Under the pieces are notes generated by a model, which did not search any database, was not told the DNA's origin, and saw nothing but the letters and a program-made list of their open reading frames with translations. This document shows positions 9,213 to 45,108 of a stretch of DNA of 64,000 nt, in pieces. The DNA is from Agromyces sp. H66. Its GTDB lineage: Bacteria > Actinomycetota > Actinomycetes > Actinomycetales > Microbacteriaceae. The stretch is from NCBI RefSeq assembly GCF_004959775.1, contig NZ_SJZG01000004.1:169196-233195 (forward strand), given 5' to 3'. Position 1 is the stretch's first letter. Every line of letters starts with the position of its first letter. Made by a program: the position numbers and the translations under genes.

Positions 9213-10229
9213 TCACCCGACGCGGCTCAGCGTCGCGACCACGGGCCGGTGGTCGCTGCCCGACCCGTCGACCTCGCCGATGACCCGGAACGCGTCGACC
9301 CGCCACCCCGGCGTGGCCAGGACGTGGTCGATCGGGCTTCCGAGGAGCTTCGGCAGGATTGTCGGCCACGTGCCGATCGCTCCCGCGCCGGCGGCGACCG
9401 CGGCATCCCGGCACCGCCCGAGGTCGCCGCCGTCGACGCCGCGGCCGGCGAAGTGGTCGACCGTCGCGTTGAAGTCGCCCGCCATGATGACGTTCTCGCC
9501 CGCGCATTGCTCGGCGAGCCAGTCGAGGTCGCTTCGCCAGTTGCGGAGTTCCCAACGGATGGGCGCGACGGCGTGCACGGCGACGATGCGCGGACCGTCG
9601 CCGGCCACCGGGTCCGCGACGATCGAGGGCAGCGTGTTCGTGTTGCCGGGCGGTCCGGGCACGAGCGCCGACGTGACCGTGTAGTCGCCGAGTGCCGGCG
9701 AGATGAGGATCGTGGTGGAGCGCGCCTTCGCGACCTCGTCGAAGGCGACGGTGTGCACCCACATGGGGCTGCCGCCCTCGCGCATCGCGATCGCGATCTC
9801 CTCGCCGAGCGGTCCGGTGGTCTCGGGCAGCACGATGACGTCGGCGCCCTCGTCGAGCGCGAGCGTCGCGATGCCCGATGCGTCGGGCACCTCTCCGAGG
9901 GTGTTCCAGGACATGACGGTGACGGATGCCTCGCCGGCCGCGGCATCCGACCCGCTCGCGCCGCGCGTGGCGAGCACCGCGACGTTGCCGGCCGCGAACA
10001 GCGCCAGGACGACGGCCATGGCGATCCCGAACCGGCGCGTCGGGCGCGGGATCGCGAAGAGGGTGAACGCCGCCGCGAACACGATGCCGCCGAGGGCCGC
10101 CGCACCGCGCAGGGCGACGACGTGCGCGGCCACCCACTGGTTCTGGAGACCCACCCCCTGCGGCCAGACGAGCACGGCGGCGAGCGCGGCCGTGCCGAGG
10201 ACGACCGTCCAGCCCAGGAAGCGCAGCAT
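9213..10229 (-). CDS. Endonuclease/exonuclease/phosphatase (EEP) family membrane-anchored protein
   Basis: 338 residues. Three N-terminal hydrophobic helices (about 5-22, 38-62 and 70-90) anchor the protein. The extracytoplasmic EEP domain then begins VTVMSWNTLG (about 102), with Glu in VIVLPETTG, MAGDFNAT (catalytic Asp/Asn) and the terminal GSDHRPVVATL. Known relatives hydrolyse phosphodiesters, including nucleic acids and lipids; the substrate is unknown here. A TAGGGT box 7 nt before the ATG suggests a leaderless transcript. Divergent from the PHP gene. Confidence 0.85.
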   Translation of the reverse strand: MLRFLGWTVVLGTAALAAVLVWPQGVGLQNQWVAAHVVALRGAAALGGIVFAAAFTLFAIPRPTRRFGIAMAVVLALFAAGNVAVLATRGASGSDAAAGEASVTVMSWNTLGEVPDASGIATLALDEGADVIVLPETTGPLGEEIAIAMREGGSPMWVHTVAFDEVAKARSTTILISPALGDYTVTSALVPGPPGNTNTLPSIVADPVAGDGPRIVAVHAVAPIRWELRNWRSDLDWLAEQCAGENVIMAGDFNATVDHFAGRGVDGGDLGRCRDAAVAAGAGAIGTWPTILPKLLGSPIDHVLATPGWRVDAFRVIGEVDGSGSDHRPVVATLSRVG

Positions 10230-32098: not shown

Positions 32099-32118
32099 AC
32101 CGGCGAGGCCGTGCTCGA

Positions 32119-32148
32119 TTGGACGGCCGATGCATCGCCTGCTAGTGT
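32119..32148 (+). promoter_or_regulatory. Promoter of tRNA-fMet
   Basis: TTGGAC (32119-32124), an 18-nt spacer and TAGTGT (32143-32148) lie 12 nt before the mature tRNA 5' end. Confidence 0.55.
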
Positions 32149-32160
32149 TATCTCTTGTGC

Positions 32161-32234
32161 CGCGGGGTGGAGCAGTTCGGTAGCTCGCTGGGCTCATAAC
32201 CCAGAGGTCGTAGGTTCAAATCCTGCCCCCGCAA
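32161..32234 (+). tRNA. Initiator tRNA-fMet (anticodon CAU)
   Basis: The full cloverleaf can be drawn. The acceptor arm pairs GCGGGG (32162-32167) with CCCCGC (32227-32232). Base 1 (C) and base 72 (A) are unpaired, the hallmark of initiator tRNA. The anticodon stem CTGGG/CCCAG holds the three consecutive G:C pairs needed by IF3, around loop CTCATAA. The T-arm is GTAGG-TTCAAAT-CCTGC. The discriminator is A (32234) and CCA is not fully encoded (cag follows). Confidence 0.97.
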
Positions 32235-32240
32235 CAGATG

Positions 32241-32271
32241 AAGGCCCGGAATCCAACGGATTCCGGGCCTT
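32241..32271 (+). terminator. Perfect hairpin after tRNA-fMet
   Basis: AAGGCCCGGAATCC (32241-32254) and its exact complement (32258-32271) are separated by AAC. This 14-bp stem begins 6 nt after the tRNA. The following T tract is poor, so it may be a weak intrinsic or processing signal. It marks the edge of the core genome before the island. Confidence 0.75.
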
Positions 32272-32417
32272 CGTGCTTGCCGCCGCGAGTCGTGCCCGCG
32301 CCCATTTCGGGTGACAGGTGCGCGATCGAGCCACCTCCGATGCCCACATGTGGAATCGTTCTACTGGGTGACCCTCCGCACCCCTCGCACCGCGGCATCC
32401 CGAAAGGCGCTTCATCG

Positions 32418-34376
32418 TTGAGCAACAACCACGCCACCTTCATTTGGTCGATCGCCGATCTGCTGCGCGGTAGCTTCAAGGCGCACCAGTACGGCGACAT
32501 CATCCTGCCGTTCACGGTGCTTCGCCGCCTCGATGCGGTGCTCGCGCCCACGAAGCAGGCGGTGTTCGCGGCGGTCGAGGAGGCGAAGCGCAATGAGCTC
32601 CCGGTGCGGGCGACCTACCTCAAACAGAAGGCCGGTCACCGGTACTCGTTCTGGAACGAGTCGAAGTTCGACCTGAAGACAGCGCTCGGCGATTCCGAGA
32701 ACCTGGCATCGAACCTGCTCGACTACGTCAACGGGTTCAGCGAGAACGTGCGTGACATCTTCGCGAAGTACAAGATCGAGGACCGTCTCGCCGAGCTCGA
32801 TGAGCACGACCTGCTGTTCCTGGTGACCCAGCGGTTCGCTGAGGTCGACCTCTCGCCGGCGAACGTGCCGAACGAGGAGATGGGCCACATCTTCGAGGAG
32901 CTGATCCGAAAGTTCGCGGAGGCCTCGAACGAGACCGCTGGTGAGCACTTCACCCCCCGTGACGTGATCGAGCTCATGGTCGACGTGCTCCTCGCCCCAG
33001 AGAACGAGACCCTGGCGACCCCGCACATCGCGCGCTCGATCTACGACCCCACGGCCGGCACGGGCGGCATGCTCAGCGTCGCCGAGGACCACATCCGTTC
33101 GGCCAACCCGACCGCGACGCTCACTCTTGCCGGGCAAGAGATCAACCCGCAGTCGTACGCGATCTGCAAGGCCGACATGACCGTGAAGGGTCAGGCGGTC
33201 GACGCGATCGTGTTCGGCGACACCCTCCGCAACGACGGCCATGAGGCTCGTACCTTCAACTACTGCCTGTCGAACCCGCCGTTCGGCGTCGACTGGAAGA
33301 AGCAGCAGAAGGATGTCACGCAGGAGCACACGCTTCGCGGCTACGCGGGCCGGTTTGGGCCGGGTCTGCCGCGCGTGTCAGACGGGTCGATGCTGTTCCT
33401 TCTGCACCTGATCTCGAAGATGCGCCCCACCGACGAGGGTGGCGGGCGTGCGGGCATCGTGCTCAACGGCAGCCCGCTGTTCACCGGCGGCGCCGGGTCG
33501 GGGGAGTCGAACATCCGCAAGTGGATCCTCGAGCGCGACCTGCTCGAGGCGATCATCGCCCTGCCGACCGACATGTTCTACAACACCGGCATCGCCACCT
33601 ACGTCTGGATCCTGTCCACGAAGAAGGAACTGAGACGCGAGCGCAAGGTGCAGCTGATCGACGGCAGCAAGCTGTTCCGTAAGATGCGCAAGGGCCTCGG
33701 CTCGAAGCGTAACGAACTCGGCGAGCAGAACATCGCCGACATCGTGAAGCTCTACAGCGACTTCGACGAGACGAAGCAGTCGAAGATCTTCCCCCGCGAG
33801 GCGTTCTTCTACCGCACCATCACCGTCGAGCGACCGCTCAAGCTGGCGTTCCAGGTCACGCCCGACCGTATCGAGGCGGCGCTCGCCGAGAAGGCGGTCG
33901 CCAAGCTCGATGAAGGCGAGCGGATGTCGCTGCGCCGCGCCCTCGAAACGCTCGACGCCGCCCGCACCTACAAGAACCGCGACGCGTTCACGAAGGAGCT
34001 GAAGGCCACGCTCAAGGATGCCGGGCTCACGCTCCCAGCCCCGGCCATGAAGACGGTGCTCGCGCAGCTTTCCGAACGGGATGACACTGCCGATGTCTGC
34101 ACCGACACCAAGGGCAGGCCCGAACCCGACCCGACATTGCGCGACACCGAGAACGTGCCGTGGACGGAGGACCTCCACGAGTATTTCGCCCGCGAGGTCA
34201 CCCCGTTCGCACCCGACGCGTGGATCGACGAGTCGAAGACCAAGGAGGGGTGCGAGATTCCCTTTACGCGGCACTTCTACGAGTACGTGCCGCCGCGCCC
34301 GCTCGAGGAGATCGACCGCGACCTCGACGTGGTACTCGGGCGGATCCGCGCGCGACTCGAGCAGGTGCGTGCGTGA
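32418..34376 (+). CDS. hsdM: Type I restriction-modification system methyltransferase subunit M
   Basis: 652 residues. The start is TTG 32418, since family members begin NxxxSFIWSxADLLRG; AAAGG lies 12 nt upstream. The N-terminal HsdM_N helical domain is followed by an N6-adenine methyltransferase: SAM motif I DPTAGTGGML (about 210-219) and catalytic NPPFGVDW (286-293). The C-terminal 130 residues include LARRTFxxR-type helices for binding S. Together with HsdS it methylates the host recognition site, and with HsdR it forms the restriction complex. The GTGA overlap with hsdS ensures coupled synthesis. Confidence 0.95.
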   Translation: MSNNHATFIWSIADLLRGSFKAHQYGDIILPFTVLRRLDAVLAPTKQAVFAAVEEAKRNELPVRATYLKQKAGHRYSFWNESKFDLKTALGDSENLASNLLDYVNGFSENVRDIFAKYKIEDRLAELDEHDLLFLVTQRFAEVDLSPANVPNEEMGHIFEELIRKFAEASNETAGEHFTPRDVIELMVDVLLAPENETLATPHIARSIYDPTAGTGGMLSVAEDHIRSANPTATLTLAGQEINPQSYAICKADMTVKGQAVDAIVFGDTLRNDGHEARTFNYCLSNPPFGVDWKKQQKDVTQEHTLRGYAGRFGPGLPRVSDGSMLFLLHLISKMRPTDEGGGRAGIVLNGSPLFTGGAGSGESNIRKWILERDLLEAIIALPTDMFYNTGIATYVWILSTKKELRRERKVQLIDGSKLFRKMRKGLGSKRNELGEQNIADIVKLYSDFDETKQSKIFPREAFFYRTITVERPLKLAFQVTPDRIEAALAEKAVAKLDEGERMSLRRALETLDAARTYKNRDAFTKELKATLKDAGLTLPAPAMKTVLAQLSERDDTADVCTDTKGRPEPDPTLRDTENVPWTEDLHEYFAREVTPFAPDAWIDESKTKEGCEIPFTRHFYEYVPPRPLEEIDRDLDVVLGRIRARLEQVRA

Positions 34377-35563
34377 TATCCACCGAAGAGAGCGCCGAAA
34401 GTTGGCCATTGGTGAGACTTGGCGCACTGGTCCAGTTCAAGAGCGGTGACGCCATCTCGGGCGAGAAGATTCGGGATGAAGGCGACTACCCCGTTTTCGG
34501 TGGGGGCGGCTTCCGCGGCTACACGGACACGTACAACACCATGGGAGACCGTGCGCTCGTCGGCAGACAAGGTGCACTCTGTGGCAATGTCACGTTCGCG
34601 CGTAGCCGCTTCTTCGCGACTGAGCATTCGCTCGTGGCGCACCCGCGTACCGCCTTCGACGCGCGATGGCTCGCGTTTCTTCTTGAAGCAATGAACCTTC
34701 GCCAGTACTCGATGTCTGCTGCACAACCGGGGCTCGCGGCGGAGAATCTGGCGCAGCTTCGAGTCCCAGTGCCGCTGATTGCGGAGCAAGAGGCGATTGC
34801 AGAGTTCCTCGATCGGGAGACGGCGGAGATCGACGCGTTCATCGCGGATCAGGAGGAGCTCATCGCCCTGCTGACGGAGCGCCGCGCCGCGACGATCAGT
34901 CACGCAGTCATCAGGGGGCTCGATCCTTCCGCCCAGACCGCTCCCACTGGCGTAAATTGGCTGGGCGACATTCCGTCGCATTGGACGGTGCGTTCGGCCA
35001 TCGCGATCGGTCGTACATTCGGCTCCGAGCCCATCGCGGAAGATGAGCTTGCCTCCGAGGGGGTGATCGCCTTCCTCAAGGTCTCGTCGTTGTCCTCCTC
35101 GTCGCTCCAACTTGAGTCGATCGATTGGTATGTGAACGACAGCCAGCGAGCCGTCACAGGCGAGTTTGTAGTATTTCCCAAGCGCGGTGCGGCCATCTTC
35201 GGGAACAAGGTCAATGTTGCGACTGGTCCCGCGGTCATTGATCCGAATCTGATGGGCTGGCAACTCTTTCCGTCAAACAGCCCGAGGTACTTCGCATATG
35301 TTCTCAAGTGCGTACGTCTCGAAGAGCTCGCCGACGTCTCGACCGTTCCACAGATCAATGTGAAACACCTCAGGGAGCTTCGCTTGCCGGTACCTCCGGT
35401 TGATGAACAGGTTCGGATTGCGCACCACATCGACAGGGAGGTCGGGGAACTCGATGCCGCAATCGCCGACGCCAGCGAAGCGATCGCCCTTTCCCGCGAG
35501 CGACGCGCCGCACTGATCTCGGCAGCGGTGTCGGGCAAGATCGACGTGAGGAGTGCCGCGTGA
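34373..35563 (+). CDS. hsdS: Type I restriction-modification specificity subunit S
   Basis: 396 residues from GTG 34373 (GTGA overlap with hsdM). Two target-recognition domains are each followed by a conserved helical spacer: TRD1 about 10-135 with VPVPLIAEQEAIAEFLDRET, TRD2 about 200-345 with LPVPPVDEQVRIAHHIDREV. The two spacers form the coiled coil that fixes the distance between half-sites. The recognition sequence cannot be read from the protein. Base composition is visibly lower in GC than the neighbours, usual for hsdS. GTGA overlap with the next gene. Confidence 0.93.
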   Translation: MISTEESAESWPLVRLGALVQFKSGDAISGEKIRDEGDYPVFGGGGFRGYTDTYNTMGDRALVGRQGALCGNVTFARSRFFATEHSLVAHPRTAFDARWLAFLLEAMNLRQYSMSAAQPGLAAENLAQLRVPVPLIAEQEAIAEFLDRETAEIDAFIADQEELIALLTERRAATISHAVIRGLDPSAQTAPTGVNWLGDIPSHWTVRSAIAIGRTFGSEPIAEDELASEGVIAFLKVSSLSSSSLQLESIDWYVNDSQRAVTGEFVVFPKRGAAIFGNKVNVATGPAVIDPNLMGWQLFPSNSPRYFAYVLKCVRLEELADVSTVPQINVKHLRELRLPVPPVDEQVRIAHHIDREVGELDAAIADASEAIALSRERRAALISAAVSGKIDVRSAA

Positions 35564-36423
35564 GGCCGCAGACGATCCAGATCTTCCTGCCGACGGGCGA
35601 TCCGAGCGGTATCCGGCAGGCGGAGATCACGACGCGTACGGTGCGGGTGTACGACGTTCCTCGCTCGGAGTTGCGGCGATTCGCCGGGCTCTCGGCGGCG
35701 CACCAGCCCGGCGTCTACTTCCTGATCGGGGAGGAGTCCGACGAGGCATCCGTCGACGATCGGCCGCTGCTCTACATCGGCGAGTCCGACGATGTCAGCG
35801 TGCGACTCGGTCAGCATGGCGCCGATGCGGCCAAGGCGTTCTGGAATCGGGCGCTCGTCGCGGTGTCGCTGACCGACAGTTGGACCAAGGCGCACACCCG
35901 TCAACTGGAGTTCGACGCGCTCGCGAGCGCCGCGAGTGCTGCGTCGCATCGTCTGCAGAACGGGAACACGGGGTTCAGCCGCAAGCTCCAGGACCCGATC
36001 GCCGCGGACTGCGCCGAGTACTTCGAGACGATCGAGGTGCTGGTCTCGACGCTGGGGCACGACTTCCTCGAGCGCGCGAAGAGCGCGGGCGAGGTGGGCG
36101 CCGACGACACCTATTCGATAACTGCCAAGGGCGCGACGGCGCGGGGCACGTACTCTGCGGCCGGGTTCACGGTGTTCCGTGGCTCTGGCGCGAACGCGGT
36201 CGTCAATCGCGAGGCGCATCCGCGAGTGCACTCGGCGCAGGGGCGCCTGCTCGCCCAGGGCGTGCTCGAAGCGAATGGAGACGGCTTCGTCTTCACACGC
36301 GACCACACCTTCACGTCGCCATCGGGCGCGGCCGACGTCGTGTTCGGCCGGTCCGCGAACGGATGGACGGAGTGGAAGACCGCCGACCGACGCACGCTGG
36401 ATTCTCAGGTGCGAGTGCAATGA
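35560..36423 (+). CDS. GIY-YIG nuclease-family protein with DUF4357
   Basis: 287 residues from GTG 35560, overlapping the hsdS stop by 4 nt. GVYFLIG (51-57) and LLYIGES (70-76) are the paired strands of a GIY-YIG core, followed by an Arg (VRLGQH) and a Glu (RQLEFDAL) suited to catalysis. The C-terminal part (about 225-280, FTSPSGAADVVFGRSANGWTEWK) matches DUF4357. Such genes recur inside type I R-M loci. The role is not established, though cleavage of modified or single-stranded DNA is possible. Confidence 0.85.
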   Translation: MRPQTIQIFLPTGDPSGIRQAEITTRTVRVYDVPRSELRRFAGLSAAHQPGVYFLIGEESDEASVDDRPLLYIGESDDVSVRLGQHGADAAKAFWNRALVAVSLTDSWTKAHTRQLEFDALASAASAASHRLQNGNTGFSRKLQDPIAADCAEYFETIEVLVSTLGHDFLERAKSAGEVGADDTYSITAKGATARGTYSAAGFTVFRGSGANAVVNREAHPRVHSAQGRLLAQGVLEANGDGFVFTRDHTFTSPSGAADVVFGRSANGWTEWKTADRRTLDSQVRVQ

Positions 36424-36449
36424 ACGACGGTCGCGGTTGTACCGATAGC

Positions 36450-36494
36450 GTGACAATCGTTCCATATTCGTGACATTCGTACCAGAATCGTCAC
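36450..36494 (+). promoter_or_regulatory. Repeat-bearing promoter/operator of the nucleotidyltransferase gene
   Basis: GTGACAATCGTTCC (36450-36463) and GTGACATTCGTACC (36470-36483) are direct repeats exactly 20 bp apart, two helical turns. An inverted half AATCGTCAC (36486-36494) abuts ATG 36495. The gene product has an N-terminal winged helix, so self-repression is plausible. Confidence 0.6.
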
Positions 36495-37121
36495 ATGAAC
36501 CTGAGCGAGCCGCTCGCGGGCATCACCAGCGAGGTCGAGGCCGCGACGCTTCGCGTGCTCGCCCGCAGCGACGCGGGGTTCTCGGGTCGGCAGGTTCACC
36601 AGCTGGCCGGCGTCGGCTCCACGACGAGCGTGCATCGGGCGCTCACACGCTTCGTCCGAGTCGGGCTCGTCGATGCGGAGTCGCGACCGCCGGCGATCAT
36701 CTACCGCCCGAACCGGCGGCACGTGCTGTGGCCCGTGATCGAGTCGGCCCTCGACACGCGCTCCCGTGTGTTCGCCGACCTCGACCGGTTCTGTCGTGAG
36801 GAACTGCCTGGCGAACTCGACCTCACCATCGTCGTGTACGGCTCGGTCGCTCGACGCGAGTCGTCGCTCGAATCCGATCTCGACCTATTCGTCGTCTACC
36901 CCGACGGCATCGATCCCGACGCGCAGGCGGAGTACAGCTATCGGCTGGAGCAGCACGCGGAACGTCTCACCGGGAACGAGACGCAGATCTACGCCGTCAC
37001 GCGCTCTGAACTCCGTCGTCGCGAACGCGATCGCGACCCGCTGCTCGCGAGCGTGATCGCCGACGGCATCGTCGTGCACGGATCGCAACTGCCCACCGCG
37101 CAGAGACGTCGCGCCTCGTGA
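36495..37121 (+). CDS. Winged-helix plus nucleotidyltransferase-domain protein
   Basis: 208 residues. An N-terminal winged helix (about 10-65, SGRQVHQLAGVGSTTSVHRALTRF) is fused to a Pol-beta-type MNT nucleotidyltransferase with VVYGSVAR (113-120) and SDLDLFVVYP (127-136), giving GS and DxD. The third acidic residue is less clear. MNT proteins are usually antitoxins to HEPN toxins or AMPylating enzymes; no HEPN gene adjoins. In this setting it may be a transcriptional regulator or a modifier of R-M subunits. The 72-nt gap after the GIY-YIG gene holds the repeats listed above. Confidence 0.75.
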   Translation: MNLSEPLAGITSEVEAATLRVLARSDAGFSGRQVHQLAGVGSTTSVHRALTRFVRVGLVDAESRPPAIIYRPNRRHVLWPVIESALDTRSRVFADLDRFCREELPGELDLTIVVYGSVARRESSLESDLDLFVVYPDGIDPDAQAEYSYRLEQHAERLTGNETQIYAVTRSELRRRERDRDPLLASVIADGIVVHGSQLPTAQRRRAS

Positions 37122-37170
37122 GGTGCTGAGCGAGCAATCCTCAGCCCGAGGTGCTCGCCAAAACACATGG

Positions 37171-37221
37171 TTGCGACTCGACCGGCGATCAGCGTATGTT
37201 TTTCCTGAGAAAACATACGCT
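37171..37221 (+). promoter_or_regulatory. Promoter overlapped by a perfect 31-bp palindrome (operator)
   Basis: AGCGTATGTTTT (37191-37202) and AAAACATACGCT (37210-37221) are exact inverted repeats around a 7-nt centre. A -35-like TTGCGA (37171-37176) and an 18-nt spacer place TATGTT (37195-37200), within the left arm, as the -10. The palindrome would therefore block polymerase when bound. Downstream are the AlbA_2 ATPase, hsdR and thermonuclease genes. Confidence 0.65.
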
Positions 37222-37238
37222 CGAGACACGGAGGCGCG

Positions 37239-38984
37239 GTGGGCATACGTTTTCACGACGACGATCCCGTCTCTGACGAGGTGCAGCGTGTGCTCACCTC
37301 ACTCGCCGGCGGCACTCCGCTCGAGCGGAAGCGCGTCGATCTCAAGGAGGAGCGTGGCCGGCGCGACAAAGGCGGAGTGCTCTCGCCTCCGGTTCCGCAG
37401 AGCGAGTCGGCCGCCAGGCACCTGGCGGGGGAATGCGCCTGCATGGCCAACACGCCGGGCGGCGGAGCCCTCATCGTCGGCGTGGCCGACGATGGCGCAC
37501 TCGTCGGCACGGGCTTGGACGCGGAATGGCTTCGATACCGCATCTACGAACTCACCGATCGACGGATCACCCCCGATATCCGTGTCGTCGACGTCAACGG
37601 CGTCCGGCTCCTGACGATCATCGTGGTCGAAGCGCTCGAGCCGATCACCTTCAACAACAAGCTGCTGTGGAGAGTGGACACGAACTGTGTCTCGATCGAC
37701 ACTGCAACCTGGGTAGCGGGTCGAGCGCACCGGCCGATGAGCGACTCGAGCGCGCTTCCGTCGACCTTCACGATCGCCGACGTCCGCCCGGTCGCCATCG
37801 CTCGCGCCCGCGAATACCTGAAGGCATCCGGCGAAACGCGCTCCATCGAACTGGCACGCTCGACTGACGCCGACATGCTCCGGCGACTGAACGCACTGAC
37901 CGCCGACGGCCATCTGACCCGTGCAGGCGCGTTGCTCTTCGTCGGCCGTGATGAGCCGGCGCTCGATTACGTGCGCCGAAAGATCGTCGCCGGCGACAGC
38001 GTGAAGCGGGTGTCATTGTCGGGTGTGGCGGTGCTGGAAGAACTGGCCGAGGTCGAGCGAGAACTCGAGGCTGCCAACGATGTCGTGTCGCACATGGGCG
38101 ATGGTTTCGCGATCGGCCAATTCCGTGAATTGCCTCCGACCGCCGTTCGCGAAGCAGTGGTGAACGGGCTAGCCCATCGCGACTGGGCCGACCCGCGCCC
38201 GACGGTCGTCGAGCACATCGGCGGCACGCTGACCGTGACCTCGCCCGGCGGATTCGTCGGTGGGGTCGACGCTACGAACATCATCACGCACCCCTCCCAG
38301 ACCCGGAACCGGGCGCTCGCCGACCTGCTCGCGGCATTGCGGATCGCCGAGCGTGAAGGTGTGGGTGTCGACCGGATGGTTCGTGACATGGTGCGACTCG
38401 GGCGGCCCTCGCCGATCATCCACGAAATCGCCGGACCTCACGTACGCACCACGCTGGTGGGCGGCGTGGTGGATGCCGAGTGGGTGCGGTTCCTCGGTGA
38501 TATCGAACCAGGCGAGTACGGGAACGACCTCGACGTCATCCTCATCCTCGACCGTGCAAGTCGCACCGGCTGGATCGACATCGAACGTTTGGCCCCCGTG
38601 CTGCAGCGCAACATCGGCGAGACCGAGCAGGCGATGGCGCGCATGCTCACCCTTCGGATCGGCGAGCAACCGCTCGTCCGACAGATCGCCGGGGTTCCCG
38701 AATCCGCGTCGCCTGCGTGGACCTTGACGGATGCCGCTCGCCGCCGCCTTCCCGCCCGGGTCGACGATGCGTTGAGTATCCGAGCACGAGCCGCGTTGGC
38801 GATGGACTGGGCTCGAGCGCGAGGACGCATCAGCAACACCGAACTCGCTGACCTCACCGGCGTGCAGCAGCCCAATACGCTTCGACTGCTCAAGTCGTTG
38901 GTCGAACGTGGGGAACTGAGGCCGTCTCGGCCGAATGCACGCGGGCGCGGGCTCTACTACGTTCCCGTTGACGGGAAGGAGTGA
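37239..38984 (+). CDS. AlbA_2/Schlafen-like DNA-binding plus GHKL ATPase, C-terminal winged helix
   Basis: 581 residues from GTG 37239 (GGAGG 4 nt upstream). An AlbA_2 domain (about 30-150) carries ERKRVDLKEE and ACMANTPGGGALIVGV. A HATPase_c_4 module (about 295-385) has VREAVVNGLAHRDW and GVGVDRMVRDMVRLG. The C-terminus (about 525-575, ISNTELADLTGVQQPNTLRLLKSLVERG) is a winged helix. This COG2865-type architecture is usually taken as a transcriptional regulator or ATP-dependent DNA sensor and is common in R-M loci. Its stop is 1 nt before hsdR, so it shares the palindrome-bearing promoter and may bind it. Confidence 0.82.
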   Translation: MGIRFHDDDPVSDEVQRVLTSLAGGTPLERKRVDLKEERGRRDKGGVLSPPVPQSESAARHLAGECACMANTPGGGALIVGVADDGALVGTGLDAEWLRYRIYELTDRRITPDIRVVDVNGVRLLTIIVVEALEPITFNNKLLWRVDTNCVSIDTATWVAGRAHRPMSDSSALPSTFTIADVRPVAIARAREYLKASGETRSIELARSTDADMLRRLNALTADGHLTRAGALLFVGRDEPALDYVRRKIVAGDSVKRVSLSGVAVLEELAEVERELEAANDVVSHMGDGFAIGQFRELPPTAVREAVVNGLAHRDWADPRPTVVEHIGGTLTVTSPGGFVGGVDATNIITHPSQTRNRALADLLAALRIAEREGVGVDRMVRDMVRLGRPSPIIHEIAGPHVRTTLVGGVVDAEWVRFLGDIEPGEYGNDLDVILILDRASRTGWIDIERLAPVLQRNIGETEQAMARMLTLRIGEQPLVRQIAGVPESASPAWTLTDAARRRLPARVDDALSIRARAALAMDWARARGRISNTELADLTGVQQPNTLRLLKSLVERGELRPSRPNARGRGLYYVPVDGKE

Positions 38985-38985
38985 C

Positions 38986-41900
38986 GTGTCGATACAGCAC
39001 GAGATCGCGTTCGAAGACGAGATCTGCGCGCACCTCGAAGCGCATGGGTGGGTGTACTCGCCGAACGACGAGTTGTACGACGCCGAACGCGCGCTCGTGG
39101 CATCCGACCTGTTCGACTGGCTCGAGGCGACGCAACCCGATCAGCTGGCCAAGATCGTCAAGCCCGAGGCATCCGCTGCGGTGCAGGACCAGGCGCGTCG
39201 ACAACTGCTCGACCGAATCGGGCAGGTACTGGCGACCGATCCGATGAACGGCGGTGGCACGCTGAACGTGCTGCGCCGCCCGGTGTCGCACCGGAACGCG
39301 AAGCTGTCGCTGTTCCAGACGCGACCGGCGACCTCGTTGAACGCGACGACACTCGAGCGGTATGCGGCGAACCGGCTGCGGGTGATGCGGCAGGTCGAGT
39401 ACTCGACGAAGCACGGCGGCCGAATTGACCTGGCGTTGTTCGTCAACGGCATCCCGGTGGCCACGATCGAGCTGAAGACCGACCTCACCCAGAACCTCGC
39501 CGCCGGGCTCAAGCAGTACGCGCACGACCGCATCCCCACGGGCGAACCGCTGCTGACGTTCGGCCGCGGCGCGCTCGTGCACTTCGTCGTCACGAACGAG
39601 GAGGTGCACATGACCACGCACCTCGATGGCGCGAACACCCGGTTCCTGCCGTTCAACCGTGGCCGCGACAACGGCGCCGGCAACCCGCCGATGGATGACA
39701 CGAGCCCGACGGCGTACTTCTGGCGCGACATCCTCGACCGGGACACCTGGCTCGACCTCGTCGGGCGGTTCCTGCACTTCCGCTTCGACGAGCGCACCGA
39801 CCCGATCGACGGGAAGAAGTCGTTCACCCGGTCGCTTCGGTTCCCCCGCTACCACCAGTGGCGTGCGGTGACGAACCTCGAACGCGTCGTGCTGGATGAG
39901 GGGCCGGGGGAGAACTACCTGATCCAGCACTCGGCTGGGTCTGGCAAGACGGACTCGATCGCGTGGGCCGCGCACCGGATGGCGCAGCTGCACCGCCCCG
40001 ACGGCTCGAAGGTGTTCGACGGCGTGATCGTGGTCTCCGATCGGCAGGTGCTCGACGGGCAACTGCAGCGGGCGGTGGAGCAGCTCGAGACGACGTCGGG
40101 AGTGTTCCAGCCGATCACCCGCGGCGGTGAGGCGTCGAAGTCGAAGCAGCTCGCCGGCGCGCTGCTCGCCGGGAAGCAGATCATCGGGGTGACGTTGCAG
40201 ACGTTCCCGCATGCGCTCGAGGAGATCGAGAAGAACACCGGGCTGGCCGGGCGGACGTATGCGGTGATCGCGGACGAGGCGCACTCGTCGCAGACAGGCG
40301 AGGCGGCGGCGTCGCTGAAGCAGGTGCTGACGGCCGAGGGTCTCGATACGCGCTCGGCGGGCGCTACTCGACCAACGGATGAGGGTGACGACGAGGCATC
40401 CGTCGACGCCGAGGATGTGCTCGCTGACTACATGGCGCGCAAAGTCGGCATCGGGAACATCTCGTTCTTCGCGTTCACGGCCACGCCGAAAGGTAAGACC
40501 GTCGAACTGTTCGGCCGGGCCGACGAGGCCGGCGAGAAGCATCCGTTCGACCTGTACTCGATGAAGCAGGCGATTCAGGAGGGCTTCATCCTCGACGTAC
40601 TGAAGAACTACCTGCCCTACGACCTCGCGTTCGAGATCGCGCACAAGGACGACCCGGCCAAGCTCGACATCGAGGTCGACGTGCAGAAGGCGAACAGCGA
40701 GCTGATGCGGTGGGTCCGTCTGCACCCGACGAACATCTCGCAGAAGGTCGCGGTGATCGTCGAGCACTTCCGTGCCAACGTGCGCAGCGAGCTCGGCGGG
40801 CGGGCGAAGGCGATGGTCGTCACCGGCTCGCGCAAGGAAGCCGTGCGATACAAGCTCGCGATCGACGAGTACCTCACCGCGAACGGGCTGGCTGACGAGT
40901 TGGCCGCGCTGGTCGCGTTCTCAGGTGCGGTGACGGATGCCGCGGCCGGCACGGGTTCGCCGGCGGGCGAGTTCACCGAGGCATCCATGAACCCGGGTCT
41001 CAAGGGGCGGGCGTTGGAGGAGGCGTTCGCCGGCGACGAGTTCCAGGTGATGATCGTCGCGAACAAGTTCCAGACCGGGTTCGATCAGCCGCTTCTCGTG
41101 GGCATGTACGTCGACAAGAAGCTCTCGGGCATCACCGCCGTGCAGACGCTCTCGCGGCTGAACCGGGTGATTCCCGGCAAGGAGAACACGTACATCCTCG
41201 ACTTCGTGAACGACCCCGCCGAGATCCGCGCGGCGTTCCAGACGTACTACGAGGACGCCGAACTGCCGATCGACAAGGTGTCGGACCCGAACGTCATCCA
41301 CGACATGCTCGGCAAGCTGCGCAGCATGCACATCATCGACCGGCACGACATCGACGACGTCGTCGACGCGTGGCTGAACAAGACCAGCCACAATCAGCTC
41401 TATTCGAAGATCAAGGCCTCTCGTGATGTGTTCTGGGACCGGTGGCGTGCTGCGGTCGACGGCGACGACGGCCTCGAACTCGCGCGGCTCGAGGAGTTCC
41501 GCGCAACCGTGAACGCGTTCGTGCGCGCCTACGACTTCCTGTCGCAGATCCTCGATTACGGCGACACCGACATCGAGAAGTGGGCGATCTTCCTGCGCGT
41601 GTACCGGCGGGTGATCGAGCGTGAGGGCGGCGACCCCTCGGCGATCAGCACGGATGACATCGTGCTCACGCACTATCGGCTGCGCAAGCTCGATGCGCAG
41701 AACCTCAAGCTCACCGACGGTCAGGCGGGCGAGCTCAGCGGCGTCACCGCCGCCGGGTCGGCGCAGCCGAAGGAGACGAAGTACGGGTTGCTGCGCGAGG
41801 TGATCGACCGGATCAACCAGCTCTTCATCGGCACCGACGTCGACGAGGTCGATCAGGTGTCGAGCATCGAGACGCTCGCGCGGCACATGATCGACAGCGA

Positions 41901-42114
41901 GCGGATCCAGGCGCAGGCGATGGCGAATACTCCGGCCGACTTCGCCTCGTCGCCGACGATCCAGGTCGAGGTGGAGGACGCGCTCTACGCGGCGGCAGCA
42001 GGGCAGAGCCAGGCGTTCAAGGCCCTGCTGAAGTCGGCGGATGCCGCGCAGATCGCCGCGGTCGTGCTGGCGATGGGGCTGTACGAGAAGGCGCGGGCGG
42101 CCGCGGAGGCGTGA
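38986..42114 (+). CDS. hsdR: Type I restriction endonuclease subunit R
   Basis: 1042 residues from GTG 38986 (AAGGAG 4 nt before; upstream stop 1 nt away). The N-terminal PD-(D/E)XK nuclease shows Asp148 in GRIDLALFVNG and Glu162-Lys164 in IELKTD. The SF2 translocase has Walker A SAGSGKTDS (about 316-324), DEAHSSQTG and FTATPKG. The C-terminal helices bind M. It translocates and cuts unmodified DNA with HsdMS. The stop overlaps the thermonuclease start (GTGATG). It is separated from hsdMS by three genes and its own promoter. Confidence 0.95.
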   Translation: MSIQHEIAFEDEICAHLEAHGWVYSPNDELYDAERALVASDLFDWLEATQPDQLAKIVKPEASAAVQDQARRQLLDRIGQVLATDPMNGGGTLNVLRRPVSHRNAKLSLFQTRPATSLNATTLERYAANRLRVMRQVEYSTKHGGRIDLALFVNGIPVATIELKTDLTQNLAAGLKQYAHDRIPTGEPLLTFGRGALVHFVVTNEEVHMTTHLDGANTRFLPFNRGRDNGAGNPPMDDTSPTAYFWRDILDRDTWLDLVGRFLHFRFDERTDPIDGKKSFTRSLRFPRYHQWRAVTNLERVVLDEGPGENYLIQHSAGSGKTDSIAWAAHRMAQLHRPDGSKVFDGVIVVSDRQVLDGQLQRAVEQLETTSGVFQPITRGGEASKSKQLAGALLAGKQIIGVTLQTFPHALEEIEKNTGLAGRTYAVIADEAHSSQTGEAAASLKQVLTAEGLDTRSAGATRPTDEGDDEASVDAEDVLADYMARKVGIGNISFFAFTATPKGKTVELFGRADEAGEKHPFDLYSMKQAIQEGFILDVLKNYLPYDLAFEIAHKDDPAKLDIEVDVQKANSELMRWVRLHPTNISQKVAVIVEHFRANVRSELGGRAKAMVVTGSRKEAVRYKLAIDEYLTANGLADELAALVAFSGAVTDAAAGTGSPAGEFTEASMNPGLKGRALEEAFAGDEFQVMIVANKFQTGFDQPLLVGMYVDKKLSGITAVQTLSRLNRVIPGKENTYILDFVNDPAEIRAAFQTYYEDAELPIDKVSDPNVIHDMLGKLRSMHIIDRHDIDDVVDAWLNKTSHNQLYSKIKASRDVFWDRWRAAVDGDDGLELARLEEFRATVNAFVRAYDFLSQILDYGDTDIEKWAIFLRVYRRVIEREGGDPSAISTDDIVLTHYRLRKLDAQNLKLTDGQAGELSGVTAAGSAQPKETKYGLLREVIDRINQLFIGTDVDEVDQVSSIETLARHMIDSERIQAQAMANTPADFASSPTIQVEVEDALYAAAAGQSQAFKALLKSADAAQIAAVVLAMGLYEKARAAAEA

Positions 42115-43775
42115 TGCATCGGGTACGGAGGTTCTTCGCGCGATCAGATGTGCGCATCGGCGCCACGGTCGCGGTCGGCGCGGGACTACTGCTGTCGGCA
42201 GCTAGGGATCGCTTTCCCGCCCTTGGGGTGGTCGCGTCGTGGATTATCGGGTTGGCGCTTCTGGTCCTCGTGGCAGCCCTTGCTGAACTCGCTCACGGCC
42301 GTCGTCGACACATGACTCCTGCCGAGCATCGCTGGTACTACGAGCATCGAAACGGCAAGCCGGCGAACCTCTACTGGCCCGGCCATTTCATTCCGGTGCA
42401 ACGGGCGCCGGTACGGCCGTGGCTCATTGAAGGTCTCGTGGTCGCCACGGCCGTCTCGTTTGGGCTCGCGAACGTGCGTTGGGGGAGTCCGCCAGCAACA
42501 CACGCATGGGTGTCGTTGACCTTCCTGCTGGGCATCAGTTCTGCGATCGCGGCATATCGCAGGTTCGTCTCGCGCAATCGAAGCATGTCACAGGCCGAAC
42601 GGGTGCTGTTCTCAGCGGATCCGGCTCAGAAGCCGTCGTTCCTCTACTGGCCAGGAGAACCGGTTCCCAGTCGTGATCCTGCGCCGTGGTCCGAGACGCC
42701 CCTGGTGTTGGTGCCGCGACGGATCATCGCCGCGTACAGCGAGCGACCACGCCGCGTCATGTCGGCAATCGCCATCGTCGTGATCTCGCTCATAGCGCTC
42801 TCCGGTGTCGTACTCACTGCCGCTCCGGCCGCTGCTGACGAAGCGACGGTGACGCGCATCGTCGACGGCGACACGTTGGAGGTCCGACTGAACGGGGAGA
42901 TCCGGCGCGTTCGGCTGCTGAACATCGATACCCCCGAACTCGGCCGCGACGGGCGCGAAGCGGAGTGTCTGGCAGAACAAGCGAAGGACACGCTCGCGCA
43001 ACTCGTGCGCCCCGGTTCGAAGGTGCGACTGGAATATGACCGCGTCCGTGTCGATCGATACGGCCGTGTGCTAGCGGCGGTGGTCAGCGAGTCCGGCACT
43101 CTCGTGAACGCCTCAATCGCTCGGCTGGGATTCAGCGGTCCGATCTCGTACGGCGACAATATGGAGTACTTCGACGAGGTCGAGGCGGCAGACAGGATTG
43201 CACGTGAGAATGCGGCCGGTATGTACGACGCTCAGGTGGAGTGTTCTCCGGCAGCGGTCATCGCGGGCATCGCGGCACAAGTTGAAGCGCTACCGCCCAC
43301 CTTGCCACCAAGCTCTGCTGAGCTCGTAACGGTCGCTGCGACGGCTGCTGCGGTGACGGTCGCGGCAGCAACCGCACGGGCGTCATTCGAACAGATGCGA
43401 TTCCTGAGCGAATCATCGCGGAGCTATTTCATCGACGAAATCGATCGCCTCTCGAGTGCGGCGAACGCCGTCGAGCGGCGCGCCGCCGTTGAAGCCGACG
43501 TCGCGCAGGCCGCGGAAGCGGCCGCCAACGAACAGGCCGAGCGCGAGGAAGAAGCTCGCAAGGCGGCGGCTGAACGCGCAGAAGCCGAGCGTGCCGCCGC
43601 AGAACAGTCGGCACGAGAGCAGTCGGGGACGCCGGATTCGGATAGTGACGATCGGGCATCCGGTGGCGGGTACCCATCCGATATCGGCTATACCGGATGC
43701 CGCGACTACAGCGGCGTCGGCATGATCGACGACCAAGGCCGCTCCTTCGCACCCATTCCGTGCCCCCCGCGTTGA
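42111..43775 (+). CDS. Membrane-anchored staphylococcal-nuclease-like protein
   Basis: 554 residues from GTG 42111 (ATG 42114 follows directly). There are about four to five N-terminal membrane helices (between residues 17 and 240). The SNase (TNase) domain starts at TRIVDGDTLEV (about 247), with catalytic RVRLLNIDTPE (Arg and Glu) and RVDRYGRVLAAV (second Arg). An Ala/Glu-rich coiled coil (about 440-510) then leads to a Cys-containing tail GYTGCRDYSG...IPCPPR. The nuclease lies on the far side of the last helix. It overlaps hsdR by 4 nt, so it is made with the restriction subunit. I know no fixed name for this arrangement. Confidence 0.8.
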   Translation: MMHRVRRFFARSDVRIGATVAVGAGLLLSAARDRFPALGVVASWIIGLALLVLVAALAELAHGRRRHMTPAEHRWYYEHRNGKPANLYWPGHFIPVQRAPVRPWLIEGLVVATAVSFGLANVRWGSPPATHAWVSLTFLLGISSAIAAYRRFVSRNRSMSQAERVLFSADPAQKPSFLYWPGEPVPSRDPAPWSETPLVLVPRRIIAAYSERPRRVMSAIAIVVISLIALSGVVLTAAPAAADEATVTRIVDGDTLEVRLNGEIRRVRLLNIDTPELGRDGREAECLAEQAKDTLAQLVRPGSKVRLEYDRVRVDRYGRVLAAVVSESGTLVNASIARLGFSGPISYGDNMEYFDEVEAADRIARENAAGMYDAQVECSPAAVIAGIAAQVEALPPTLPPSSAELVTVAATAAAVTVAAATARASFEQMRFLSESSRSYFIDEIDRLSSAANAVERRAAVEADVAQAAEAAANEQAEREEEARKAAAERAEAERAAAEQSAREQSGTPDSDSDDRASGGGYPSDIGYTGCRDYSGVGMIDDQGRSFAPIPCPPR

Positions 43776-43853
43776 TCGCAGTATGCAACTTCCTGGGGTC
43801 GTGGATGTGTGGCGTCGAACGGAGGTGCCAAACGGGCCGAGCAGATCGGTTCC

Positions 43854-44957
43854 TCACGACGGCCGGGCGACGACGATGCGCGGATGCCTCCCCGCCACGC
43901 TCAGCGGAAGCGTTCGTACCACGTCCCAGTGCCGGCTCCCGGCGAGCGCCGGCTCCTGGCCCTCATCGACGAGGACGACGAGGAGTCCGTCGTCGCGCAG
44001 CACCCGGCGCCACTCGCTCAGCAGGTGCGGCAGTCCGTGGCGTTCGTGCACCTGCACACCCCACGGCGGGTTGCTGATGATCCGGTCGATGCTGCCGCTC
44101 GCGTCCGGCAGGGAGACCGCGTCGCCGACGCGCCACACGATGCCCGGGTGTCCATCGGCGTTGCCGGTCGCGATGCGCACGGCATCGGCGTCATGGTCGC
44201 CGCCGACATATGCGCCGTCGGGCTCCGCGTGCGCCGCCTCGATCAGGATGGTGCCGGCACCGCAGCAAGGGTCGAGAACGCGGAGGCCGGGCTCCAGCCG
44301 TGCGAGTTCGGCCATCGCGGCCGCGACCGGAGGGTGGATGCTTCCCGCCACGGTGGCGCGCCGCCACGCGCGTCGATGCAGCGGCGTGCCGCTCGCACGC
44401 AGGCCCACCCGCACGAGCGTCCCGTCCGCGGTCACGCGCCAGTCGATGGCTTCCGGCGGGGGAGCGATGCCACCCCGCCGCGAGTGGTACGCGGCTCCGA
44501 GCCGTCGCGCCAGCACCCTGCCCACGGCATCCTCGAGGTCGTGGCGGCTGTAGTTCCGTCGACCCGTGAGCGATGCCGTGGCGCTGAACACCACGTTCCG
44601 TCGGAGGTCTCGGGCGCGAAGCATCCTCACCCCGGCCGTGAGGTCGGCTCGCGCCAGCGCCGTGGACAGCGGATCGAGGCACTGCCGGCTCCGCCCCGGG
44701 TCGGGTATCGACGCGACGATCGGGAACACGTCGTCGGCGGTGCGCGGCGGGTCGGTCAGGATCGAGTCGTCACGTGGTTCCACGACGAACTGTCGCTTCG
44801 AGGCGGCGAGGACGCGATGGCCCTCGCGAGCGAGCCCGGCGGCGGTGAGCTCCTCCAGGCCGTTGACGGTGCGGACGAGGATCGAGGGAGGGGGAGTGAT
44901 GCTGCTCGGGCGCGCGCGGTCGAGCGACCGCGCCGCCTCTCGGCGGATGGCAGGCAT
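43854..44957 (-). CDS. THUMP/Trm11-like N-methyltransferase (RNA-type)
   Basis: 367 residues from ATG 44957 (GGAAG 7 nt before). The C-terminal Rossmann domain has motif I VLDPCCGAGTILIEAAH (about 239-255) and catalytic SNPPWGVQV (about 304-312), the NPPW/Y motif of amino-group methyltransferases. The N-terminal half (RTVNGLEELTAAGLA, RNYSRHDLEDAVGRVL) resembles the THUMP-associated region of tRNA/rRNA guanine N2 methyltransferases. The likely substrate is tRNA or rRNA. It borders the island on the opposite strand and may be the first core gene. Confidence 0.75.
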   Translation of the reverse strand: MPAIRREAARSLDRARPSSITPPPSILVRTVNGLEELTAAGLAREGHRVLAASKRQFVVEPRDDSILTDPPRTADDVFPIVASIPDPGRSRQCLDPLSTALARADLTAGVRMLRARDLRRNVVFSATASLTGRRNYSRHDLEDAVGRVLARRLGAAYHSRRGGIAPPPEAIDWRVTADGTLVRVGLRASGTPLHRRAWRRATVAGSIHPPVAAAMAELARLEPGLRVLDPCCGAGTILIEAAHAEPDGAYVGGDHDADAVRIATGNADGHPGIVWRVGDAVSLPDASGSIDRIISNPPWGVQVHERHGLPHLLSEWRRVLRDDGLLVVLVDEGQEPALAGSRHWDVVRTLPLSVAGRHPRIVVARPS

Positions 44958-45108
44958 GTGAGAACTTCCGGTCGGCGATTGAAGCGGCGGATGGCCGCCC
45001 CACATCGCTCGCCGCGGGCGGGGCCTCGGTCTGGCGAGCGGGTCGCTAGCCGAGGAGGAAGAACATGCGTGTCACGGAAAGCATTCTACGGTGCAGTGCC
45101 GGCCCCGC

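Follow-up and report, generated by a model that had tools for sequence, protein, structure and literature searches.

A type I restriction-modification locus of Agromyces sp. H66 with hsdR located behind cargo genes and their operator-like sites

The 64,000-nt stretch of contig NZ_SJZG01000004.1 of Agromyces sp. H66 analyzed in this study (referred to as the window; coordinates are those of the window unless a relative is named) contains, at positions 32418-43775, a type I restriction-modification (R-M) locus in which hsdM, hsdS and hsdR are accompanied by four accessory genes. We consider it probable that this locus occupies a tRNA-Met hotspot, that the hsdS-hsdR junction serves as a slot for cargo genes, and that hsdR now lies behind the operators of this cargo. 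Type I loci carrying cargo in this slot are already known; the present combination of seven genes is new among the genomes searched, and what merits testing is the placement of hsdR behind cargo operators. The restraint of HsdR on unmethylated host DNA is often attributed to proteolysis; the arrangement found here makes transcriptional gating testable.

Organization of the locus

The window proteins were scanned with Pfam, PADLOC and NCBIfam, from which the domain names are taken (Table 1). HsdM, HsdS and HsdR are encoded together, as they are in the related loci L004-L010 (L, G and H numbers denote loci, genomes and plasmid records, respectively). The methylase, nuclease and helicase motifs, read by eye as DPTAGTGG and NPPF in HsdM and as D...ELK, AGSGKT and DEAH in HsdR, are intact. 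Alignments of close relatives begin at residue 1 of HsdM, as translated from the TTG start, and four HsdR relatives are 71-77% identical to the window protein.

The gene junctions agree with those reported in the first-pass annotation. The genes hsdM, hsdS and that of a GIY-YIG nuclease-like protein (the GIY gene) are joined by 4-nt GTGA overlaps and look like one translationally coupled unit. They are followed, after a 71-nt gap, by the gene of a winged-helix nucleotidyltransferase (NTase), which stands between the two gene sets, and then, across a 117-nt gap holding a palindrome, by the gene of a protein with AlbA_2, GHKL ATPase and winged helix-turn-helix (wHTH) domains (the AlbA gene). A single nucleotide separates the latter from hsdR, which is overlapped by the gene of a membrane SNase; this gene starts either with GTG, giving a 4-nt overlap, or with ATG at 42114 within a TGATG junction. 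A terminator scan gave no terminator-like site from hsdS to the AlbA gene, so read-through from hsdM is possible, and the 20-bp repeats before the NTase gene mean that there may be three transcription units rather than the two proposed earlier.

Table 1. Features of the type I R-M locus and its left border
Feature	Position	Strand	Evidence and remarks
tRNA-Met (CAT)	32161..32235	+	ARAGORN; directly upstream of hsdM, left edge of variable region
GC-rich hairpin just 3' of tRNA-Met, probable tRNA terminator	32240..32272	+	By eye
hsdM, type I DNA N6-methyltransferase, TTG start	32418..34376	+	Pfam N6_Mtase 8.5e-62, HsdM_N 4.1e-22; PADLOC MTase_I 6.6e-275
hsdS, specificity subunit	34373..35563	+	Pfam Methylase_S 3.7e-25; GTGA overlap with hsdM
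GIY-YIG nuclease-like protein, C-terminal DUF4357	35560..36423	+	DUF4357 8.6e-22; GTGA overlap with hsdS
Two tandem 20-bp repeats before NTase gene, operator-like	36449..36488	+	16/20 positions match; reached by 0/60 shuffles
Winged-helix + minimal nucleotidyltransferase, PDC-M05A-like	36495..37121	+	NTP_transf_2 1.9e-6; PDC-M05A 1e-13
Perfect palindrome AGCGTATGTTTT-7-AAAACATACGCT 5' of AlbA gene, operator-like	37191..37221	.	Two perfect 12-nt arms, 7-nt spacer
AlbA_2 / HATPase_c_4 (GHKL) / wHTH protein	37239..38984	+	Pfam; relative L236; solved relative 3lmm, E 1.1e-73
hsdR, restriction/translocase subunit	38986..42114	+	HSDR_N 4.8e-15, SWI2_SNF2 6.9e-19
Membrane protein with SNase (thermonuclease) domain	42111..43775	+	SNase 9.3e-13; hydrophobic segments

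The hsdS-hsdR junction as a cargo site

HsdR relatives were sought across 84,980 species, each represented by one genome, and the best 80 of at least 536 confirmed matches were mapped with the seven proteins of the window and with profiles for GIY, NTase, AlbA and the NTase partner described below; several of these loci end at contig ends. Both hsdS and hsdR were matched in 71 of the 80 loci, and in 35 of the 71 at least 600 nt lie between the two genes. Ten open reading frames (ORFs) from the slots of eight of these 35 loci comprised TumE, a zeta toxin, a HipA-like kinase, DUF3037 and RhuM/Fic, the other five being uninformative. A Salinibacter ruber plasmid shows the order hsdM-hsdS-ATPase-hsdR (the HATPase_c match of the ATPase is below the cut-off), with a GIY-DUF4357 relative nearby. 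The frequency of long gaps, the variety of the slot genes and the Salinibacter plasmid together indicate that the hsdS-hsdR junction is a common cargo site.

The gap between hsdS and hsdR is -14 to +37 nt in eight of ten close relatives, the exceptions being L004 (378 nt) and L005 (1966 nt, occupied by cargo). The latter locus, from Salinibacterium sedimenticola (also genome G529, locus L202), carries hsdM, hsdS, a GIY gene (59% identity), an NTase gene (62%) and hsdR (76%), and it is the only one, among the best 80 loci and the genomes of the family, whose slot contains close relatives of both GIY and the NTase. An AlbA_2/HATPase_c_4 gene lies inside the slot of L046, and distant relatives are scattered: L031, L032 and L034 have a GIY gene 5' of hsdM, and L052 and L060 an NTase within the slot.

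The family set consisted of 299 genomes including that of the window, i.e. 298 others, and its counts hold at the thresholds used. Relatives of the NTase were found in 33 of the 299 genomes, of GIY in 15, of AlbA in 8, of SNase in 14 and of HsdR in 22. Of the 21 other HsdR-bearing genomes, 18 were examined. Accessory genes of the window type occupy the hsdS-hsdR interval in G529 only; this interval is long but free of such genes in G656 and G650, and G620 has a GIY relative on the opposite strand to hsdM, at a distance of about 2 kb. A further 29 order-level loci with short flanks yielded no accessory-gene match. The full set of seven genes was present in none of the best 80 HsdR loci, as far as their contigs reach, and in none of the 298 other family genomes. 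The dedicated, timed seven-gene system put forward in the first-pass annotation, for which a conserved gene order across genomes had been suggested as a check, is therefore not supported by the material searched.

In the HsdR tree the window falls outside a group of L005, L004 and L006 (supports 98/98 and 99/99), the last two of which have no accessory match, and in the HsdM tree the window and L005 are not paired. Since the two cargo-bearing loci are not sisters, the histories of cargo and core appear partly separate; the tree position, together with the lack of accessory matches in L004 and L006, indicates repeated loss of the cargo or its exchange.

The GIY-YIG/DUF4357 gene

The GIY-YIG/DUF4357 gene recurs beside type I R-M genes, and its product may be a nuclease. 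The GIY-YIG match in Pfam is weak (E 0.011, 16.4 bits against a cut-off of 22.6), that of DUF4357 is clear, and a PDB sequence search with the protein returned no match. The L005 relative occupies the same place as the window gene and likewise overlaps hsdS by 4 nt. Within the family, an hsd match was found within 6 kb of 10 of 14 GIY relatives (all places other than the window's own, except L202). Relatives of the other accessory genes, scored in the same way, gave 0 of 19 for the NTase (the best 20 of 35 places other than the window's, minus L202), 0 of 7 for AlbA (all seven in the family, L236 included) and 0 of 2 for SNase (2 of 13). A random occurrence of the accessory genes, which had been named beforehand as speaking against a functional set, thus describes, in the sample fetched, the NTase, AlbA and SNase genes, and does not describe the GIY gene.

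A GIY relative was present in 50 plasmid records, and 16 from among the matches listed, all of different genera, were examined. Eight of them (H2, H5, H6, H8, H9, H12, H13 and H16) have genes annotated as hsdS and/or type I no farther than 6 kb from the GIY gene. H20 is probably also linked to a type I system, its methylase and helicase not being named type I; the remaining seven (H1, H4, H7, H10, H14, H18 and H19) show no type I link near GIY, H7 having another methylase and helicase. In H2, H8, H13 and H16, which represent Pseudomonadota and Actinomycetota, hsdS lies immediately 5' of GIY and overlaps it by 1 or 4 nt, and the order hsdS-GIY-hsdR is seen in H2 and H8, as well as in H16 if the DEAD/DEAH helicase gene there is hsdR. 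The literature searched, including passages of papers naming DUF4357, gave no description of this link, and the repeated occurrence of a GIY-YIG/DUF4357 gene as the fourth member of type I loci is a lead for further work. A gene of the SprT metalloprotease family was observed right after hsdR in 4 of the 16 plasmid stretches (L292, L294, L295 and L297).

The NTase gene, its repeats and the missing partner

Judged by sequence comparison, the NTase belongs to a two-gene, toxin-antitoxin (TA)-like module whose promoters favour a 20-bp repeat. The window protein contains a minimal nucleotidyltransferase (MNT) domain, with the GSxAR...SDxD motif of MNT proteins; a PDB sequence search gave no match. 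A partner gene of approximately 130-150 codons adjoins 16 of 20 NTase homologues (L202-L221), and a profile was built from 11 of these 16. The NTases without a partner are those of L204, L210, L214 and L217, the last of which keeps a strong repeat (17/20). In L005 the partner (136 aa, positions 9574-9984 of that locus) lies between the NTase gene and hsdR, which begins about 16 nt beyond it. Beside the window NTase, the profile search found no partner at E 10, tblastn gave one distant chance match in the window (46123, E 0.31), and a GTG frame overlapping the NTase stop closes after three codons. This comparison suggests that the window NTase is a remnant, which may have been autoregulated. 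A related pair was seen in Kocuria rhizophila (L011, 3-1103), where NTase and partner lie 5' of a related hsdM, apparently through a separate meeting of both modules.

The AlphaFold2 model of the L005 partner, computed from a single sequence, is built of five helices, with a pLDDT of 81 for the best model and 68-77 for the others. The best PDB match of the partner, the designed helical bundle 6egc (2.4e-4), was discounted as evidence. In an RxxxxxH pattern the histidine is present in 11 of 11 partners and the arginine in 8 of 11, with lysine in place of arginine in L005; HEPN proteins are all-helical with an Rx4-6H pattern. The PADLOC system PDC-M05 is described as NTase plus HEPN (PMC12988326), which makes a HEPN-like partner plausible.

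The periodicity was analyzed in 110 nt upstream of 20 NTase genes (the window, L005 and L203-L220; L221 was dropped, its start position being uncertain). At period 20 the mean best match was 12.8/20, compared with 7.25-9.2 at 35 other periods (10 to 45), and 50 sets of random windows gave a mean of 8.7 at this period, with a maximum of 9.45. The best period was 20 in 13 of the 20 promoters and 40 in two others. The repeat sequences vary from locus to locus, which would fit operators read by the winged helix of each NTase copy itself. Within the window, exact copies of the NTase repeats or of the AlbA half-sites occur nowhere outside 36449-36488 and 37192-37220. Agreement between the window and L005 in successive 10-nt blocks upstream of the NTase start is 10, 9, 8, 7, 5 and 5. 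This winged-helix NTase family, with promoters favouring a 20-bp period and locus-specific repeat sequences, is a second lead.

The AlbA gene and its palindrome ahead of hsdR

When the 130-nt region upstream of the AlbA gene was dinucleotide-shuffled 200 times, the palindrome arms were equalled in no case, and none of three control upstream regions has a significant palindrome. A further half-site (9/11) is located at 37243, in the start region of the gene. Palindromes also precede some AlbA relatives, whose starts are approximate: a 10-nt arm in L236, the nearest relative (45% identity; 0/200 shuffles), a 9-nt arm in L238 (3/200) and an 8-nt arm in L242 (9/200). By eye, several of L237-L241 share an imperfect GTTTTnC...CCCTTCAC...GnAAAAC-like palindrome before the AlbA_2/GHKL gene. 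A search of plasmids with the AlbA protein matched a single distant record. The operators thus seem to belong to the cargo genes themselves, clearly so in the NTase family and partially in the AlbA family.

Because the AlbA gene and its palindrome stand ahead of hsdR, the output of HsdR is probably set there; on the grounds of position and domain content, the AlbA protein may bind the palindrome and adjust the level of HsdR. The separation of modification from restriction proposed in the first-pass annotation is retained in so far as hsdR lies apart from hsdM and hsdS, behind an operator-like palindrome, and is not supported as an attribute of a dedicated seven-gene system. In EcoKI, hsdR and hsdMS are transcribed from separate promoters. 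The locus resembles EcoKI-type loci in that restriction and modification would each have a promoter, putative in this case, and differs from them in that the gene of a regulator-like ATPase comes first and hsdR second.

Hydropathy marks segments of the SNase protein near residues 40-58, 104-122 and 216-234 and, less strongly, at 403-421. By eye, the part preceding the SNase domain closes with an Ala-rich sequence resembling a signal peptide. The domain possibly faces outside, the loop charges not settling the side. A literature search for membrane SNases in defence gave nothing relevant.

Chromosomal setting

The GC content is 64-67% across 32-44 kb and 69-76% elsewhere in the window, except for about 68-69% at 28-32 kb and 68% at 62-64 kb. 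A UPF0182 gene followed by tRNA-Met was found in 14 of 14 same-genus regions, and the DNA beyond the tRNA differs among them; neither hsdM nor hsdR of the window has a match in the stretches available (approx. 20 kb each; 6.8 kb in L283). The distance from tRNA-Met to the ABC1 kinase gene is about 3 kb in the nearest relative, L277, versus 12.9 kb in the window. The tRNA-Met site after UPF0182 therefore looks like a candidate integration hotspot, and the R-M locus was probably acquired, presumably by horizontal transfer. Four of the 14 regions (L279, L280, L281 and L287) contain a second copy of tRNA-Met.

To the right of the locus lies a gene for an RMKL/UPF0020-like methyltransferase (43854-45005, minus strand). 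It was considered as a conserved right flank and rejected, none being found in the 14 other same-genus genomes (E 1e-30); the variable region may thus reach past the SNase gene.

Proposed arrangement and alternative explanations

In the explanation that we favour, hsdM, hsdS and the GIY gene would act as one coupled unit. The wHTH-NTase would be what is left of a self-regulated TA-type module of NTase and small helical partner, the repeats having been kept and the partner lost. The AlbA_2/GHKL/wHTH gene, with its own palindrome, would head hsdR, and the membrane SNase gene would be a loosely attached tail, so that restriction would be placed downstream of cargo regulators. A bolder version, which we regard as rather unlikely, is that self-regulated cargo modules capture hsdR: in the window the palindrome would govern AlbA-hsdR-SNase, and in Salinibacterium the NTase repeats would govern NTase-partner-hsdR. 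Restriction would then be derepressed in the manner of a TA toxin, with the orphan wHTH-NTase repressing or modifying its new neighbours.

Several observations weigh against the favoured explanation. A promoter had been placed within the palindrome; the palindrome is significant, but a consensus scan of 32100-44000 gave no sigma-70-like site, the consensus being ill-suited to a high-GC actinobacterium. The control region before 47412 contains a repeat matching at 17/20 with period 11, reached by no shuffle, which makes any one repeat weak evidence by itself. The L005 repeat (12/20) was matched in 38 of 60 shuffles and is not significant alone, and the window and L005 are only slightly more alike upstream (34/40) than in their NTase coding sequences (440/571). 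The regions upstream of the AlbA relatives in L237, L239, L240 and L241, their starts being approximate, have no significant palindrome, and an AlbA relative precedes hsdR in just one other locus (L046) of the best 80. Many of the hsdM matches near GIY relatives are just 24-31% identical, so other methylase types are possible. The partner gave no usable match to HEPN in Pfam, PADLOC, a PDB profile search or a profile comparison with two HEPN sets, the comparison being without power, as these two known sets also failed to link with each other.

The locus could instead be an ordinary defence island, in which the tRNA-Met site and the hsdS-hsdR slot gather defence genes linked by co-transcription only. 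The variable content after tRNA-Met in the 14 same-genus regions, the 35 of 71 loci with long slots and the varied TA and abortive-infection (Abi) genes in the slots scanned are all in keeping with this, but the linkage of GIY is non-random, with hsdS overlaps in two phyla, the NTase repeats are retained although the partner is gone, and hsdR sits directly after the AlbA gene. We doubt this explanation.

A dedicated timed system, in which methylation comes first and the AlbA protein and the NTase license restriction and the SNase afterwards, appears improbable. A significant palindrome and a wHTH protein do precede hsdR, hsdR of L005 likewise lies behind an NTase-partner module, and type II systems have C proteins able to postpone restriction (PMC3874152). 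Against this stand the failure to find the seven-gene set among the other loci and genomes searched, the fact that the relatives of the accessory genes that were fetched, GIY excepted, are not near hsd genes, and one known type I control that works through HsdR proteolysis (PMC12255303).

Least probable by far is a guard of the PrrC or DarTG type, in which the cargo would be a back-up active once the R-M core is inhibited: PrrC in EcoprrI (PMC12707154), DarTG2 between hsdS and hsdR (PMC12255303), HEPN toxins in R-M operons (PMC3710099) and the NTase-partner pair of L005 offer parallels, but the likeliest effector would be the partner, which is missing from the window, and the remaining effectors resemble nucleases rather than known suicide toxins.

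Relation to known systems

A close comparison to the arrangement that we favour is the RptR-RMS-DarTG2-M48 island of EPEC, in which a TA module lies between hsdS and hsdR (PMC12255303). Both loci have seven ORFs, a regulator of promoter repeats (putative in the window), one extra gene after hsdR and a presumed horizontal origin. In the EPEC island, RptR precedes the whole island, whereas the regulator-like genes are internal in the window; NTase and AlbA take the place of DarTG2, SNase that of M48, and the toxin-like partner is gone (PMC12255303). A complete TA module is thus not found between hsdS and hsdR in the window (NTase only), and L005 has the NTase-partner pair.

The NTase resembles the MNT/HEPN type VII and PDC-M05 systems in its NTase domain, its PDC-M05A match and the small helical partner beside most homologues (PMC12988326), and differs from MNT/HEPN in its N-terminal winged helix, its promoter with 20-bp repeats, a partner matching no HEPN model, and the absence of this partner from the window. 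Accessory genes in a type I hsdS-hsdR slot are also known as the rlo genes of Campylobacter (RloF), although the gene families differ as far as described (PMC4619093). The membrane SNase recalls SNIPE, in which a nuclease domain is tied to the membrane; unlike SNIPE (DUF4041/GIY-YIG, with a cytoplasmic nuclease), it has an SNase domain, its membrane side is uncertain, and its role in defence is putative (PMC13190303).

The genome of the window also contains a second HsdR-like frame of 1207 aa (L002, G000:C29:142126-143820), which is 25-30% identical.

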